Assembly: GCF_900258045.1 (NCBI RefSeq)
Contig: NZ_OGVD01000004.1
Location: forward strand, 496,001 to 560,000
Origin: Sphingorhabdus sp. EL138
Lineage (GTDB): Bacteria; Pseudomonadota; Alphaproteobacteria; Sphingomonadales; Sphingomonadaceae
Reading direction: 5' to 3'
DNA length: 64,000 nucleotides
Shown: one piece after another, positions 21,997 through 60,938 of the stretch
Layout of the letters: each line of letters begins with the position of its first letter
How positions within the stretch are numbered: the first letter of the stretch is position 1
The notes under the pieces: model-generated
What the model saw: only the letters and a program-made list of their open reading frames with translations
Told to the model about the DNA's origin: nothing
Database searches by the model: none
Position numbers and translations under genes: made by a program

Positions 21997-22011
21997 GTTC
22001 CACTCTTGTTC
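21997..22011. promoter_or_regulatory. LexA (SOS) box of recA
   Basis: GTTC-CACTCTT-GTTC is an exact match to the alphaproteobacterial LexA consensus GTTC-N7-GTTC, 75 bp before the recA start. A GAAC immediately downstream (22017-22020) makes a further half-site. Confidence 0.9.
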
Positions 22012-22086
22012 TGGTAGAACAAATGCGGTACATCATATCCATCATTGATTGATAAGGTACAAGCATTTAGCGAAGGGGACAGGCAA

Positions 22087-23178
22087 ATGGCCGGCAATTT
22101 AAAAGTCGTAGAATCGGATAATCAATTGAACTCATCAGACAGACAGAAGGCGCTTGACGCCGCGTTGGCGCAGATTGATCGCGCTTTTGGTAAAGGCTCG
22201 GCTATGAAGCTGGGTTCCCGCAAGGCGATGGAGGTCGAGTCGATCTCTACCGGTTCCTTGGGGCTGGATATCGCGCTTGGCATCGGGGGATTGCCAAAAG
22301 GTCGTGTAATCGAAATTTATGGTCCGGAAAGCTCTGGTAAAACTACTCTGGCGCTGCATGCTATTGCCGAAGCGCAAAAAGCCGGTGGTACCGCTGCTTT
22401 TGTTGATGCCGAGCATGCACTGGATCCTGTCTATGCCAATGCACTGGGCGTGAATATTGATGAGCTGATTGTTTCTCAGCCGGATACGGGTGAGCAGGCA
22501 CTTGAAATCACCGATACGCTGGTGCGGTCCAATGCGATTGACGTACTGGTCGTGGACTCGGTTGCGGCGCTGGTCCCGCGGGCTGAAATTGAGGGCGAGA
22601 TGGGTGATAGCCATGTTGGCCTCCAAGCTCGTTTGATGAGTCAGGCGCTACGCAAGCTGACCGGCTCAATCAATCGTTCCAAATGCATGGTGATCTTCAT
22701 CAACCAGGTGCGCATGAAAATTGGTGTTATGTACGGTAACCCTGAAACGACATCTGGCGGTAATGCGCTGAAATTCTATGCGTCGGTTCGTCTTGACATT
22801 CGCCGCACCGGTCAGATCAAAGAACGCGATGAAATTGTCGGTAACTCGACGCGCGTCAAGGTGGTCAAGAACAAGGTGGCTCCGCCGTTCAAGCAGGTCG
22901 AGTTCGACATCATGTACGGGCAGGGTATTTCCAAGGTCGGTGAGATAATCGATCTCGGGGTCAAAGCCGGTGTGGTCGAAAAATCCGGGGCATGGTTCTC
23001 CTATGACTCAGTACGGATCGGCCAGGGGCGCGAAAATTCAAAGCGCTTCCTGCTGGAAAACCCGGAAATGATGGCCAAGCTGGAAAATCAAATTCGCGGC
23101 AATGAAGAAGAAATTGCCGATGAGATGATGACCGGGCCTGTCGGAGCCGATGGCGACGCTGAAGCCGAGACCGAATAA
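22087..23178 (+). CDS. recA: Recombinase RecA
   Basis: 363 residues from the ATG at 22087, with AAGGGGA 8 to 14 bases upstream; a TTG at 22045 is less likely. It forms nucleoprotein filaments on single-stranded DNA, promotes strand exchange and stimulates LexA self-cleavage. The Walker A motif is GPESSGKT (about residues 79-86), with VDAEHALDP, Walker [11 protein letters not shown], and the L2 loop [28 protein letters not shown]. The C-terminus is acidic as usual. An SOS box lies upstream, and tandem hairpins follow. A LexA gene is not in the window. Confidence 0.98.
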
Positions 23179-31095: not shown

Positions 31096-31276
31096 AGAAA
31101 TTATTCTTTCCTGCAAGCAATGTTTATCGAAGCATTCGGTGGGAGGAATCCAAGATGACGATCTCTTAGCAAAGATCGCAATATGTTCAACCATCTGTTC
31201 AAAACTCTCGTCATTGATCCTGCAAAACTGCTGCAGGAGTATTGTCAGAGCAGGACACTGCTTCTAAGGAACATCC

Positions 31277-32011
31277 ATGGCGATAGAAAAATATTCAAAC
31301 AAAGGCCTTGGCGAAGCCAAATGGTCTTTTCCACCGGTCCACCCCGAAGGCCGCAAATTTGCGGTCATCTCGGCGGCCATTACTGCAGTCTTTGCTTTTT
31401 TCGCATGGGAAACGCTCGCATGGCCTATGGCCGGTGTTACCATCTGGGTGCTGGCCTTTTTCCGTGATCCGAAACGGGTCACGCCTCTGGATGATAAATA
31501 TATTGTTGCACCGGCGGACGGGCTGGTCAATTTGATCATGCCGGTGGTACCACCGCTGGAATTACAGGGTGAGGGCGGTCTCGGGGACGAGGAACTGATC
31601 CGCGTCTCAATCTTCATGAGCGTTTTTGACGTGCACATCAATCGCACGCCCATTGAAGGTACTGTGAAACGGCAGGCCTATATATCAGGCAAGTTCCTGA
31701 ACGCTGATCTTGATAAAGCTAGCGACGAAAACGAGCGCCAGCATTTCATGGTCGAACGCAATGATGGTCTGAAGGTTGGCTTTACCCAGATAGCTGGACT
31801 GGTCGCACGGCGGATCATGTCCTTCGTGAAAGAAGGCGATTTCGTTGCGGTCGGGCAGCGTATTGGCCTGATTCGTTTTGGTAGCCGCGTCGATGTTTAC
31901 CTGCCCAAGGGCACAACACCCAATGTGGTTTTGGGACAGCGGACCATTGCCGGAGAAACGGTTATTGCTGAAATCGGGCAAGTGAAAGAAATTGAAGGCA
32001 TTGGTCAATGA
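31277..32011 (+). CDS. psd: Phosphatidylserine decarboxylase (short proenzyme)
   Basis: 244 residues. It converts phosphatidylserine to phosphatidylethanolamine at the inner membrane. Hydrophobic segments lie at about 27-60. Self-cleavage at the Gly-Ser of [11 protein letters not shown] (Ser near 203) would create the pyruvoyl group and small alpha subunit. [16 protein letters not shown] is another family mark. It is followed after 35 bp by pssA, which makes its substrate, so the two form a PE synthesis unit. Confidence 0.95.
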
Positions 32012-32046
32012 CGACCAAGGCAACTGTTCAGGACCCGCTCTAGTTA

Positions 32047-32841
32047 ATGGCAGATAATGAGCACACCAAACGACCGGAACGGGGTATATCGCTGCGAGCC
32101 TTTACACCGAACGCGGTGACTGCATTGGCGCTTTGCGTCGGTCTCAGCGGTGTGCGCTTTGCATTTCTGGAAAATTGGGTACTGGCTGCCGGCGCCGTTG
32201 TCCTGGCCGGCATATTGGACGGATTGGACGGGCGCATCGCCCGGTTATTGAATGCTCAAAGCCGTTTTGGTGCGGAACTCGATTCGCTTTCCGACGTGAT
32301 TGCTTTTGGCGTAACGCCAGCGCTTGTCATGTTTTTCTGGTCACTGCAGCATATGCCGCAATTTGGCTGGGTGATATCCCTGACCATGGCCGTGGGTTGT
32401 GCGTTACGGCTGGCCCGGTTCAACGCCCATATTGATGACGAGGATCAGCCGCACAAGTCGGCCGGGTTTTTAACCGGCATTCCAGCTCCGGTCGCTGCCG
32501 GTCTCGCCATGCTGCCCTTATATCTCTGGGTGATTACTGATCAGGAGCTGTTTCGCCATTATTTTGTGGTCGGACCATGGATTGTGCTCATCGCCTTCCT
32601 CATGATCTCCAACACAGCCACATACAGTTGGTCCTCACTTCGGTTGCGTAAGAATATCCGTCTGGAGGCTCTTGCAGGCTTCGCTCTGCTCGGTGTCGCG
32701 CTTATTAACAATCCGTGGATAACATTAAGTGTGATCAGTATCGGCTATATCGTTCTGATTCCGTTCAGCATCCGTGGCTACGCAAAGGTCAAGCGGCAGC
32801 GCGCAAAGGAACTGTTCGAACAGTCCGGCGGCGCGGGCTAG
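32047..32841 (+). CDS. pssA: CDP-diacylglycerol-serine O-phosphatidyltransferase
   Basis: 264 residues, multi-pass membrane protein. The CDP-alcohol phosphatidyltransferase motif D-G-x2-D-G-x-x-A-R-x8-G-x3-D-x3-D is seen in DGLDGRIARLLNAQSRFGAE followed by LDSLSD (about residues 58-83). It makes phosphatidylserine for Psd, encoded just upstream. It is the membrane-bound type II enzyme found in many alphaproteobacteria. Its last 53 bp overlap a small gene on the opposite strand. Confidence 0.95.
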   Translation: MADNEHTKRPERGISLRAFTPNAVTALALCVGLSGVRFAFLENWVLAAGAVVLAGILDGLDGRIARLLNAQSRFGAELDSLSDVIAFGVTPALVMFFWSLQHMPQFGWVISLTMAVGCALRLARFNAHIDDEDQPHKSAGFLTGIPAPVAAGLAMLPLYLWVITDQELFRHYFVVGPWIVLIAFLMISNTATYSWSSLRLRKNIRLEALAGFALLGVALINNPWITLSVISIGYIVLIPFSIRGYAKVKRQRAKELFEQSGGAG

Positions 32842-33031
32842 TCCGGCAAGCCTTGTTCGCTGGCCCACGATTGCGCTGCGAGACAGCCAGCGCACCGACG
32901 TTCTTCTCACCAAGTTCCGCAACTATCACGGCCATTATCTTGTCCTGATAAGTATGAAACATCATCCCGATGGTCAGAACTGCGCCAATCAAGGCGAGGG
33001 CAAAAAAGGTGGCAATAGCGAATGTCAGCAT
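32789..33031 (-). CDS. Small single-pass membrane protein, predicted SOS-induced
   Basis: 80 residues; I do not recognise the family. Residues 3-25 form one strong hydrophobic helix (start MLTFAIATFFALALIGAV), followed by a polar helix with HTYQDKIMAVIVAELGEK and a very basic tail (nine Arg/Lys in the last 30 residues), so the C-terminus is predicted cytoplasmic. The last 18 codons are antisense to the end of pssA, so that part may be shaped by overlap. A LexA box sits 37 bp upstream within a promoter-like TTGACA-N17-CATTAA. A small LexA-controlled membrane protein recalls Caulobacter SidA, a 29-residue SOS division inhibitor, but no homology is claimed. That it is a gene at all is probable, not certain. 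Confidence 0.6.
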   Translation of the reverse strand: MLTFAIATFFALALIGAVLTIGMMFHTYQDKIMAVIVAELGEKNVGALAVSQRNRGPANKACRTSPRRRTVRTVPLRAAA

Positions 33032-33063
33032 GTCAAAATCCCGTATGTTCTTTCTATGAACCT

Positions 33064-33092
33064 TTAATGTTCTAAATATGTTCTCTTGTCAA
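33064..33092 (-). promoter_or_regulatory. Promoter-like element with embedded LexA box
   Basis: On the minus strand TTGACA (33092-33087), 17-bp spacer, CATTAA (33069-33064). The spacer carries the LexA box. The -35 is perfect; the -10 is poor. Confidence 0.55.
33069..33083. promoter_or_regulatory. Second LexA (SOS) box
   Basis: GTTC-TAAATAT-GTTC is an exact match to the alphaproteobacterial consensus, 37 bp upstream of the small membrane protein and within its promoter spacer. By chance about two such exact matches are expected on both strands of a 64-kb window, so placement, not sequence alone, supports it. Confidence 0.7.
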
Positions 33093-33309
33093 ATATTATC
33101 TGAAACGTGCTTGAAATACGCATCAAGTGGCGAAAAGGTTACATCCTGCTGCTGATGCGGAAGTCTCGGAGCCAGGGTAGCTCACGACCTTTCAAGTTGT
33201 ACGATGGTCAGGCTTAGCCTGTTTTCAAAGGTCCGATCTTATCCAATTACATAATGGTCTTCCGTTTCATCCCCTCTATGATCGGCCGGTCGAAAGAGAG
33301 AGAGTGTGA

Positions 33310-33708
33310 ATGCCGGTAGACCCTTATATCTATGTAGTTATCGTCAGCGCGCTCGCGCTGCTGGCTTACTATTTCACTCTGCTGATGGCTGGTTTGGCGC
33401 GGGGCAGGTTCAAAATTGAAGCGCCATCGCACAGCGGCCCTCCGGAATATGAACGCTATGTTCGTGCCCATCATAATACACTTGAGCATCTGGTTCTGTT
33501 CCTGCCCGGGTTGTGGCTCTTCGCTTACGCGGTCAACCCGGTCTGGGCTGCCGGGATTGGACTAGTCTGGCCCGTCATGCGCGTGGGCTATGCCTTGGGT
33601 TATCATAGGGCATCGGAAAAGCGGTTGCTGTGGATTTACCTCAGCATGCCGCCCATATACATTTTTGTTCTGGGCTCGCTTATCGGCGGCCTGATGCAGG
33701 CAATCTGA
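33310..33708 (+). CDS. MAPEG family membrane protein
   Basis: 132 residues with four membrane helices (about 5-30, 58-80, 82-98, 108-130). The loop RVYVRAHHNTLEHL-like pattern, here YERYVRAHHNTLEHLVLFLP, carries the Arg/Asn/Glu features of MAPEG proteins (membrane-associated eicosanoid and glutathione metabolism). A glutathione-dependent role is possible but not shown. It is directly upstream of the amidohydrolase gene (2-bp gap), so they are probably co-transcribed. Confidence 0.85.
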   Translation: MPVDPYIYVVIVSALALLAYYFTLLMAGLARGRFKIEAPSHSGPPEYERYVRAHHNTLEHLVLFLPGLWLFAYAVNPVWAAGIGLVWPVMRVGYALGYHRASEKRLLWIYLSMPPIYIFVLGSLIGGLMQAI

Positions 33709-33710
33709 GG

Positions 33711-35426
33711 ATGAGAGAGATGACTATGGAACATGATCTGGTGATCCGGGGAGGTACTATTGCCGATGGCAGTGGCGGCGCGCTTATTGAAGGTGACATA
33801 GCTGTTTCCGATGGTAAAATCTCTGCCATAGGAGAGGTAACCGGTAGTGGCCGCGAAGAAATTGATGCCACTGACCGGATTGTGACGCCGGGTTTTATCG
33901 ATGTGCATACCCATTATGATGGCCAGTGCATCTGGGCGGAAGAATTAAGTCCTTCATCCTCGCACGGCGTAACAACCGCGGTAATGGGTAATTGCGGTGT
34001 CGGGTTCGCTCCTTGCCGAAAAGACGACCATGATCTGCTGATCAATGTCATGGAAGGGGTGGAGGATATACCCGGTGTCGTGATGGCGGATGGCTTGCCA
34101 TGGAACTGGGAAACATTTCCGGAATATCTGGATACTGTGGCGAAGGGCAAACGCGATATTGATGTCGCCGCTTATCTGCCGCATTCGCCGCTCCGGGTTT
34201 ATGCCATGGCCGAGCGCGGCGCTTCGCGAGAACCGGCCAATGACGACGATCTGGCGCTTATGCGCAAGCTGTCTAAGGAAGCAATTGAAGCCGGCGCGCT
34301 GGGTTTTGCCACTTCACGATTGTCGATACACAAAACGGCGGATGGCGGAAGTATTCCGACATTTGAAGCTGATGTTCAGGAGCTGGAAGCGATTTGTGGC
34401 GGAATGGCCGATGCCGGGGCAGGTACATTTCAGGTCGTGCTCGATGCCTTTGTTGGCTGGGACAAAGAGTATAAGGTGATCGAGCGGGTGGTCGAGGCGA
34501 GCGGCCGACCTGCCACCTTTACATTGGCCTCGGGGAATGATGGCCCGCCACGCTGGCGCAAGGTGCTCGACATGATCGATCAAACCAATGCCAGCGGCGG
34601 CAAAGCCACGGCGCAGATCATGCCCCGTCCGATTGGCTTGATCGCGGGCCTGGAACTGACGGTGCATCCGTTCGTGCTTTGCCCGAGTTGGTCCAAAATT
34701 GCCGACTTGTCTGTTGAGGAGCAGGTCGCTGCGATGCGCGATCCGGAGTTGCGGGAAGCCCTGATCACTGAAGACTTTGAAAAAGGCCACCCGTTTAACG
34801 AGCTCGCCCGGGACTGGAACTGGCTGTTCCCGCTGGACGATCCGCCAGATTATGCCCCGCCAAAGGAAATGAGCATGGCTGGGCAGGCAAAGGCGAAAGG
34901 CTGCTCGCCTCAGGAAATCGCCTATGACCGGCTGTTGGAAACCGAGGGCAAAGGGTTGTTTCTTGCTGCGCTGGGCAATTATGAGGATGCGACGCTCGAT
35001 AGCGCGCATGAAATGCTCAGTCATCCGCATTGTATCCCAGGCCTTGGCGATGGCGGCGCGCATTATGGCGCAATCTGCGATGCGAGCTATTCAACCTTTT
35101 TGCTGACGCAATTTGTTCAAAATCCGGGAGATCTGCGTTTTGACCTTGCCGAGGCGGTACATATGCTGTCGCACAAAGCGGCCAAAGCGGTCGGGCTGCC
35201 GGAGCGTGGCTTGCTGAAGCCGGGGGCCAAGGCTGATATCAATGTCATCAACCTGGACGGCTTGAAACTACACCTGCCTGAAATCGTACGTGATCTGCCG
35301 GCGGGTGGTCAACGCCTTCATCAGCGCGCGACCGGTTATGATGCTACCATTGTTTCAGGGGAAGTGATCCGTCGATTTGATGAATCAACGGGCGCAAGGC
35401 CCGGACAGCTGATCAGGAACGCTTAA
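33711..35426 (+). CDS. Amidohydrolase, N-acyl-D-amino-acid deacylase-like
   Basis: 571 residues from the ATG at 33711; in-frame ATGs at 33720 and 33726 are also possible. The beta-strand start HDLVIRGGTIADGSG and the metal motif DVHTHYDGQ are of the amidohydrolase superfamily, and GNCGVGFAP is typical of the D-aminoacylase branch. The C-terminus has HKAAKAVGLPERGLLKPGAKADINV, a returning beta-sandwich typical of the family. Signal peptide is absent, so it is cytoplasmic. Hydrolysis of an N-acyl-D-amino acid or a cyclic amide is likely; the true substrate is unknown. Confidence 0.88.
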   Translation: MREMTMEHDLVIRGGTIADGSGGALIEGDIAVSDGKISAIGEVTGSGREEIDATDRIVTPGFIDVHTHYDGQCIWAEELSPSSSHGVTTAVMGNCGVGFAPCRKDDHDLLINVMEGVEDIPGVVMADGLPWNWETFPEYLDTVAKGKRDIDVAAYLPHSPLRVYAMAERGASREPANDDDLALMRKLSKEAIEAGALGFATSRLSIHKTADGGSIPTFEADVQELEAICGGMADAGAGTFQVVLDAFVGWDKEYKVIERVVEASGRPATFTLASGNDGPPRWRKVLDMIDQTNASGGKATAQIMPRPIGLIAGLELTVHPFVLCPSWSKIADLSVEEQVAAMRDPELREALITEDFEKGHPFNELARDWNWLFPLDDPPDYAPPKEMSMAGQAKAKGCSPQEIAYDRLLETEGKGLFLAALGNYEDATLDSAHEMLSHPHCIPGLGDGGAHYGAICDASYSTFLLTQFVQNPGDLRFDLAEAVHMLSHKAAKAVGLPERGLLKPGAKADINVINLDGLKLHLPEIVRDLPAGGQRLHQRATGYDATIVSGEVIRRFDESTGARPGQLIRNA

Positions 35427-35614: not shown

Positions 35615-36649
35615 ATGGCGGCCCCTGTCGTCACCCTACAGCAATTGATTGAAGCCGGATCGCATTTCGGCCACCAGACCCACCGCTGGAATCCAAAGAT
35701 GAAACCGTACATCTTTGGAGCCCGTAACGGCGTCCACATTCTTGACCTTTCGCAGAGCGTTCCTTTGTTCGCTCGCGCGCTTGATTTCATTGCAAATGCA
35801 GTGTCTTCCGGCGGCAAGGTCCTTTTCGTTGGTACCAAGCGTCAGGCACAAGAGCCTATCGCAGAAGCAGCCCGTGCAAGCGGACAACATTTCGTCAACC
35901 ATCGCTGGCTCGGCGGCATGCTGACCAACTGGAAAACCATTTCCAACTCGATCCGCCGGATGAAGACGCTCGAAGAGCAGCTTTCCGGTGACATGGCTGG
36001 CTTCACCAAGAAAGAAGCCCTGCAGATGACGCGTGAGCGCGACAAGCTGGAACTGTCTTTGGGCGGTATCCGCGACATGGGCGGTATTCCCGACGTGATG
36101 TTCGTGATTGACGCCAACAAGGAAGAGCTCGCGATTAAAGAAGCCAATGTTCTTGGTATTCCGGTTGTGGCGATCCTCGATTCTAACGTCGACCCCAGCA
36201 ACATCGCTTTCCCGGTACCGGGCAATGATGACGCGGCGCGCGCCATTCGTCTTTACTGCGAATCCGTGGCTGCAGCTGCGACCAAAGGCGGCCAGGAAGC
36301 GGCTGTGGCATCTGGTAAGGATTTGGGCGCCGAAGTGGCTCCTCCGGTAGAAGCCATTGTTTCCAGCGAAGCCAATGCAAGTGCAATGGCCGCTGGTGAA
36401 GCGGCTGCAGTTGCAGAGATGGAAGCGGCACCGGCTGAAGCGCCTGCGGCTGAAGAAGCTCCTGCTGCAGCAGAAAAACCGGCAGAAGAAAAGCCTGCTG
36501 AAGAAGCAAAAGCTCCTGCCAAAAAACCAGCTGCCAAAAAGGCACCAGCCAAGAAAGCAGCTGCAAAAAAGGCACCAGCCAAGAAAGCGCCAGCTAAAAA
36601 AGCTGCCGCTAAAAAGGACGACGACAAGAAAGCCGACGAAAAGGCCTAA
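35615..36649 (+). CDS. rpsB: 30S ribosomal protein S2 with long C-terminal extension
   Basis: 344 residues from the ATG at 35615 (AAGGAG upstream). The core (about 1-225) is a normal S2: [31 protein letters not shown] and [14 protein letters not shown]. Typical bacterial S2 has about 240 residues; here about 110 extra residues follow, first Ala/Glu-rich, then a Lys/Ala/Pro repeat tract from about 303 ([20 protein letters not shown] type). The repeats resemble the RNase E tail in this window and histone-H1-like tails. It leads the rpsB-tsf-pyrH-frr cluster. Confidence 0.96.
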
Positions 36650-60414: not shown

Positions 60415-60938
60415 ACCGCTGGCTGCTCTGGATTCCGTTGGTGTTGTTCAGCCTGTTTTTTGCGATCGTCGCAGGCGGTTTAATGCGGCCCAAGGACAAC
60501 ATCATCGAATCGAAAATGATCGGTAAACCGATCCCGGAATTTGCGCTGCCTGCTGCGATTGCGCAGCGCCCGGCTTTGACCACTACTGATCTGGCTACCG
60601 GCAAACCGCAATTACTCAACATTTTCGCAAGCTGGTGTGTGCCCTGTATTGCAGAGGCACCGCAGCTGCTTGCGCTGGAGCAGGCAGGCGTATCGATCAA
60701 CGGCATCGCCAGCCGCGATACGCCAGAGGATATCGCGAATTTCCTCAACCGATGGGGCAATCCTTATGTCCGGATTGGGACAGATGTGCGCAGCGCGGTG
60801 CAACTGGAACTCGGTTCATCGGGTGTTCCGGAGACATTCGTGATCGATGGCAATGGCGTGATTGTGCACCAGCATATCGGTGATATCCGCAAGGAAGATG
60901 TTCCGGAACTGCTTGAAATATTGGAGAAAGCGGGATGA
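60411..60938 (+). CDS. ccmG: Thiol:disulfide interchange protein CcmG (DsbE)
   Basis: 175 residues. One N-terminal membrane helix and a periplasmic thioredoxin domain with the CxxC site WC76VPC79. It reduces apocytochrome c for heme attachment. GVPETFVIDGNGVI is the cis-Pro region. Overlaps both neighbours by 4 nt. dsbE is an alternative symbol. Confidence 0.96.
   Translation: MNRWLLWIPLVLFSLFFAIVAGGLMRPKDNIIESKMIGKPIPEFALPAAIAQRPALTTTDLATGKPQLLNIFASWCVPCIAEAPQLLALEQAGVSINGIASRDTPEDIANFLNRWGNPYVRIGTDVRSAVQLELGSSGVPETFVIDGNGVIVHQHIGDIRKEDVPELLEILEKAG

Follow-up and report, generated by a model that had tools for sequence, protein, structure and literature searches.

A predicted LexA-controlled small membrane protein gene, widespread in the Sphingomonadaceae and mostly convergent to pssA, as a candidate damage-induced inhibitor of division

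Organization of the locus

The window (the whole stretch of 64,000 nucleotides from Sphingorhabdus sp. EL138 that was analysed) holds a small open reading frame (ORF) that the initial annotation had described as encoding an 80-residue, LexA-controlled membrane protein of unknown family. The ORF, with its ATG start, lies on the minus strand as first described, and its reported antisense overlap with the 3′ end of pssA amounts to 53 bases (Table 1). It is transcribed towards psd-pssA. The product of pssA has a Pfam CDP-OH_P_transf match that exceeds the cut-off of that model, and its best NCBIfam match is TIGR00473, at 99.8 bits and under the cut-off of 107. Upstream of the small ORF and divergent from it are a MAPEG gene and an amidohydrolase gene, followed by rpsB from position 35630; the start of rpsB is 2.6 kb from the small ORF.

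Table 1. Positions of the small membrane protein gene, its features and reference elements in the window
Feature	Position	Strand	Basis or remark
Small SOS-box membrane protein, coding sequence	32789..33031	minus	80 aa, ATG start, stop included; ORF list, dN/dS, relatives
Membrane helix and its continuation, residues 2-42	32906..33028	minus	AlphaFold2 model; conserved face
Basic variable tail, residues 43-80	32792..32905	minus	low-confidence coil in model; charge
C-terminal Ala-Ala-Ala, candidate degron	32792..32800	minus	Ala-Ala end conserved
LexA (SOS) box, GAACATATTTAGAAC in the gene's direction	33069..33083	minus	exact match; conserved in relatives
-10 element CATTAA	33064..33069	minus	read from sequence
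-35 element TTGACA	33087..33092	minus	read from sequence
pssA	32047..32841	plus	convergent neighbour; last 53 bases overlap the small coding sequence
recA box, GTTCCACTCTTGTTC	21997..22011	plus	reference regulon member

Ahead of the ORF, the elements TTGACA and CATTAA, separated by 17 bases, make up a sigma70-like promoter, and the exact SOS box that had been placed within this spacer is indeed present there, on the minus strand. It occupies most of the spacer, shares one base with the -10 element and begins 52 bp upstream of the ATG (locus L013 of our set); read on the plus strand it is GTTCTAAATATGTTC, and in the direction of the gene GAACATATTTAGAAC, that is, GAAC-N7-GAAC. The recA gene of the window (ORF 22045-23178), which was said to have a box of the same type, carries one (GTTCCACTCTTGTTC) ahead of its start. 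The sole lexA gene found in the genome (G000:C1:726453-727139, minus strand) likewise has a box, GTTCCGTATTCGTTC at 727158-727172, on the same strand and immediately upstream. Excerpts of PMC12700426 give GTTC-N7-GTTC as the LexA-box consensus of Caulobacter, the same as here.

The motif occurs four times in the window against 1.55 expected, and four or more occurrences were seen in 7 of 100 shuffles; in the genome it occurs 108 times against 105 for a reversed control motif, which is the level of chance. Two of the exact matches in the window, at 32752-32766 inside pssA and at 60814-60828 inside another ORF, are probably fortuitous. A single box, or a count alone, proves nothing; what lifts the box of the small ORF above chance is its conservation across relatives.

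Distribution of the gene and conservation of its box

A search with the single protein gave weak matches in other genera, and these proved to be genes that converge on pssA and point away from rpsB. Profile A1, of 12 proteins, found matches in 119 of 397 genomes of the family (40 of 96 genera), and profile A2, of 78 proteins, in 204 of the 397 (56 of 96 genera) at E ≤0.05, a threshold that admits some matches by chance. A draw at the level of the order gave matches in 34 of 147, all from the family of the window except one weak match, and a draw at the level of the class in 8 of 289, of which those in two from the window's family were the only strong ones. The collected set retained 99 rows, corresponding to 93 distinct proteins. 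Twenty-one of the 30 early loci (L016, L020-L022, L024, L025, L027-L037 and L039-L042) were dropped because they had no match below 1e-3, and L103, a matching paralogue without a box, was excluded by hand from the later loci.

If the ORF is LexA-controlled, the initial annotation had argued, its homologues should keep the start and the membrane helix and should each be preceded by a box. The start and the helix are kept, and a strict box in the gene's direction stands within 200 bp of 89 of the 93 distinct relatives; the remainder of these loci, 289,352 bases, contains 9 boxes in either orientation. The four members lacking a strict sense box within that distance are L026, L055 and L058, in which the nearest candidates are one-mismatch sites, and L108, in which the box is reversed. 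In 82 of the 89, TTGA precedes the box by no more than 30 bp. Among 20 further loci taken from the A2 matches, the strict box was found in all, in the orientation of the gene in 19, and every protein ended in Ala-Ala. The reversed arrangement, with GTTC in the gene's direction, is seen in both members examined of genus g51 (L108 and L159). Genus g2 has paralogous second copies without a box (L103, L281 and L282), whose tails are longer and different.

A test independent of protein similarity was made on one genome from each of 53 genera, chosen for having no A2 match. We found pssA in 51 of these and scored its 3′ flank over about 960 bases, requiring an ORF of 45-150 codons that starts no more than 210 bp after a box and encodes an N-terminal hydrophobic segment. 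A box in the expected orientation was present in 48 of the 51 flanks and one in the opposite orientation in none; behind the box, a small membrane ORF satisfied the rule in 46 flanks, and 39 of these 46 ORFs end in Ala-Ala. The flanks with no strict box in the scored stretch are L181, which has one-mismatch sites, L211, where boxes lie nearer rpsB, and L217, which stops at a contig end. In L220 and L222 a box is present with no ORF that satisfies the rule. Outside the family, we scored 40 of the 64 flanks that had a pssA match (20 of the 42 belonging to other families of the order and 20 of the 22 belonging to the remainder of the class; one flank, L240, is only 375 bases long), and they held a box in 0 of 20 and 1 of 20, respectively, and a small membrane ORF in 0 of 40. 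Taken together, these searches support the view that a small membrane protein behind an SOS box is common across the Sphingomonadaceae, mostly at a single locus. We thus reject a chance box as the explanation: counts in the window and the genome are at chance level, whereas conservation in the relatives and in the syntenic flanks is not.

Two observations concern variants among the family members that the profiles missed. Behind the box of L220 (at 1390, reverse complement) lies a 35-residue membrane peptide without a tail, near the 29 residues of SidA. In many profile-missed members (L172-L222) the helix finishes with an Ala-Asp-Ser motif, as in LADSxLRG, and these may form a second subtype.

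In two genera the gene has left pssA. It lies near lon (L090 and L278), beside rpsB (L091) or at other places away from pssA (L126, L276, L277, L279 and L280) in genus g69, and near adk (L105) in genus g88; a box precedes the relocated gene at 8 of 8 loci in g69 and at 3 of 3 in g88. In L090 and L278 the gene sits near the end of lon, the identity of which was confirmed; this proximity to the gene for the protease that clears SulA from E. coli (excerpts of PMC13396833) may be a matter of chance. L091 holds two tandem copies, and only the downstream-listed copy, 2051-2326, has a strict box of its own. The pssA genes left behind differ between the two genera. No box adjoins pssA in g88 (3 of 3). 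In g69 a box in the family's sense is retained beside pssA in 9 of 9 loci (L267-L275), but it stands ahead of an ORF of 449-464 codons, and no small membrane ORF is found beside pssA in any of the nine. The long ORF, which may encode RmuC, appears coiled-coil-like and is co-directional with pssA, and it is a candidate further SOS gene; a 106-residue fragment of it gave no Pfam or NCBIfam match. Since the g69 box stands ahead of the long ORF, a box beside pssA is by itself no proof, and what is conserved is the pairing of box and small ORF. With this pairing followed through relatives, syntenic flanks and relocated loci, control of the small membrane protein gene by LexA is well supported.

Coding status, helix and topology of the protein

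Among ungapped pairs from the window's genus, dN/dS outside the pssA overlap ranges from 0.08 to 0.36 (2 of 28 pairs were saturated and gave no value); inside the overlap, with few sites, it scatters from 0.25 to 2.5. Comparison of the coding sequences in this way shows that the small ORF is a real protein under purifying selection. An AlphaFold2 model of the window's protein has one helix, residues 2-42, with a mean pLDDT of at least 86 for each of the first three blocks of ten residues, and a disordered tail. A hydrophobic segment is present in all 93 members. In the same 93 proteins the N-terminal side of this segment is never net positive and the C-terminal side has a mean net charge of +6.1, reaching at least +3 in 88. 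According to the positive-inside rule, the more positive side of a membrane helix is the cytoplasmic one; on this basis the tail is probably cytoplasmic and the uncharged N-terminus periplasmic.

The best-conserved positions, 10, 21, 24, 28, 32 and 36, fall on one face of the helix, and their helical moment was matched in 0.0009 of shuffles; the tail is the least conserved part of the protein. Repeated on 14 of 20 later members, the six with a shifted N-terminus having been excluded by hand, the test gave a moment matched in 0.0069 of shuffles; this group, having been found with the same profile, is not fully independent. A single conserved face suggests that the helix has a specific helix partner, rather than acting as a membrane-disrupting peptide.

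The protein had been called a member of an unknown family, and the profile databases bear this out: when 78 members were scanned against Pfam, NCBIfam and PHROG, the only matches were weak and each occurred in a single member, so that no model of these collections matches more than one of the 78. The window's 80-residue ORF has no Pfam match, and LysM is not among the families listed for the 78 members. The statement that bacteria of this group lack a known SulA holds as far as our scan extends, in that PF03846 matched none of 59 genomes of the family, that of the source included, and did match the E. coli control.

The Ala-Ala end and the overlap with pssA

The protein ends in Ala-Ala in 87 of the 93 members, compared with none of the 46 gene-like ORFs in the window; the six exceptions are L062, L065, L079, L087, L088 and L126. 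In 79 members the coding sequence overlaps pssA by at least 16 bases, and in all 79 it does so in a single register. The terminal RAAA-stop is antisense to pssA codons for (V/I)-(K/R)-(R/Q)-x-R, as seen in the 40 rows printed. This pssA motif is partly retained in g69 and g88, from which the small gene has left, and pssA thus accounts for part of the conservation of the Ala-Ala end. Conversely, the end is kept in 13 of the 14 members with a shorter overlap or none, and also in five further g69 loci. Because Ala-Ala persists where there is no such overlap, we read it as functional, with the overlap adding to its conservation. ClpX, according to review passages, recognises ends such as Ala-Ala, and we infer that the end probably acts as a degron.

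Discussion

The initial annotation had offered a new division inhibitor or a membrane toxin as possible roles. In our judgement the locus is best explained as encoding a membrane protein that is induced by SOS, inhibits division in the manner of SidA and limits its own action, a reading to which we give about an even chance. A checkpoint inhibitor best accounts for the features seen together here, namely an SOS operator, no SulA in 59 genomes, and a membrane protein that has a single conserved helix face, a variable tail and Ala-Ala at its end; division as the target is suggested by analogy with known systems. LexA bound to the box in the promoter spacer would repress the gene, and DNA damage, acting through RecA and cleavage of LexA, would for that reason switch it on. 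The protein would be inserted with its uncharged N-terminus in the periplasm, one helix crossing the membrane and extending beyond it on the cytoplasmic side, where the basic disordered tail would also lie. The conserved face of the helix may then bind a partner in the membrane, the likeliest candidates being proteins of the late divisome (FtsW, FtsI, FtsN), and so delay septum synthesis until repair is complete. Through its C-terminal Ala-Ala the protein would be delivered to a cytoplasmic AAA+ protease, of the ClpXP class or Lon, so that the division block would end when SOS ends. On this model the protein would be the sphingomonad counterpart of Caulobacter SidA.

More tentatively, and as a possibility rather than an expectation, the same features may describe a family-wide damage checkpoint of the Sphingomonadaceae, in which LexA would control a membrane inhibitor whose tail lies in the cytoplasm and ends in a degron. 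In most members the end of its coding sequence would be locked antisense into the end of pssA, so that the two genes share codons and constrain each other.

Other readings start from the same observations. TisB of E. coli is an SOS-controlled one-helix membrane toxin, and DinQ, also of E. coli, is described as an SOS-controlled one-helix membrane protein with such a role. The protein here might likewise be an SOS-induced membrane-depolarising toxin that slows growth or brings on dormancy and is not specific to division, and the 35-residue tail-less form behind the box of L220 would be in keeping with this. Unlike TisB and DinQ, however, it is longer, has a conserved locus and ends in Ala-Ala. 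Moreover, toxin-antitoxin pairs usually spread patchily and this locus is conserved in most genera; the conserved helix face also speaks against a toxin. An Rfam scan of 31200-33800, which covers known families, matched no RNA that might serve as an antisense antitoxin. We regard a toxin as unlikely. We see the same slight likelihood in some other SOS function at the envelope, in which the basic tail would bind a repair protein, DNA or the head groups of lipids and tether what it binds to the membrane: the tail is strongly basic, but it is the least conserved part of the protein and is missing in L220, and the conserved face lies in the helix.

The arrangement with pssA invites the idea of a regulator of phospholipid synthesis that lowers PssA activity after damage, through either the protein or an antisense transcript. 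Most loci have the gene convergent to pssA, and the register of the 3′ overlap is fixed throughout the overlapping members, and yet the genes of g69 and g88 sit elsewhere and keep their box. The purifying selection on the protein itself makes a purely antisense role unlikely, and overall we hold regulation of PssA to be rather improbable. Very improbable, in our estimate, is that the box serves rpsB or some other divergent neighbour and that the ORF is incidental. In many loci the box does lie between rpsB and the ORF, and the box beside pssA in g69 precedes the long ORF rather than a small membrane ORF; against this, rpsB of the window is 2.6 kb away with two genes between, the box still stands ahead of the ORF near lon in g69 and near adk in g88, and the small ORF is coding.

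A damage-induced division inhibitor would be of interest in this family, because sphingomonads have SOS boxes at recA and lexA and yet no SulA in the 59 genomes searched. Within the family the gene is widespread and is kept under one operator, and in 40 flanks from other families it was not found at the corresponding position. The overlap with pssA in a fixed register, together with the Ala-Ala end, also provides a testable case of two genes that constrain each other's codons.

Comparison with known systems

Our literature searches, with most subscription journals outside their coverage, returned no paper on this gene and none naming a division checkpoint of sphingomonads. The proposed role resembles that of SulA of the Enterobacteria, an SOS-controlled division inhibitor cleared by Lon (excerpts of PMC13396833), but the target of SulA is FtsZ and PF03846 is absent from all 59 family genomes. 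In its Ala-Ala C-terminus, present in 87 of 93 members, the protein resembles the substrates with ssrA-like C-degrons.

In description the protein comes closest to SidA of Caulobacter crescentus, a small inner-membrane protein under LexA control through the same GTTC-N7-GTTC box (excerpts of PMC12700426 and PMC4211646). A single small helix is a further point in common, here predicted only, and SidA differs in having 29 residues (PMC4211646, in excerpt), whereas the protein here has 80, among them a long basic tail that ends in Ala-Ala. DidA, also of Caulobacter, has 71 aa and one helix, and its ORF overlaps the end of a neighbouring ORF (excerpts of PMC4211646); in contrast to the gene here, which has a LexA box in its promoter, it is described as SOS-independent and induced by DriD. 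YneA of Bacillus, SosA of Staphylococcus and ChiZ of Mycobacterium are SOS-induced membrane proteins that block late division (excerpts of PMC13396833). YneA has an extracellular LysM domain according to the same excerpts, whereas the protein here has no Pfam domain and its tail is predicted to be cytoplasmic. As far as these sources extend, SidA, DidA, YneA, SosA and ChiZ are mostly unrelated small membrane proteins that act at the FtsW/FtsI/FtsN stage. Should the sphingomonad protein prove to be a division inhibitor, it would extend the small membrane SOS checkpoints by one more family, the tail of which is predicted to lie on the opposite side of the membrane from that of YneA. This would be a new family for which a known task is predicted, having a cytoplasmic tail and a degron of its own.
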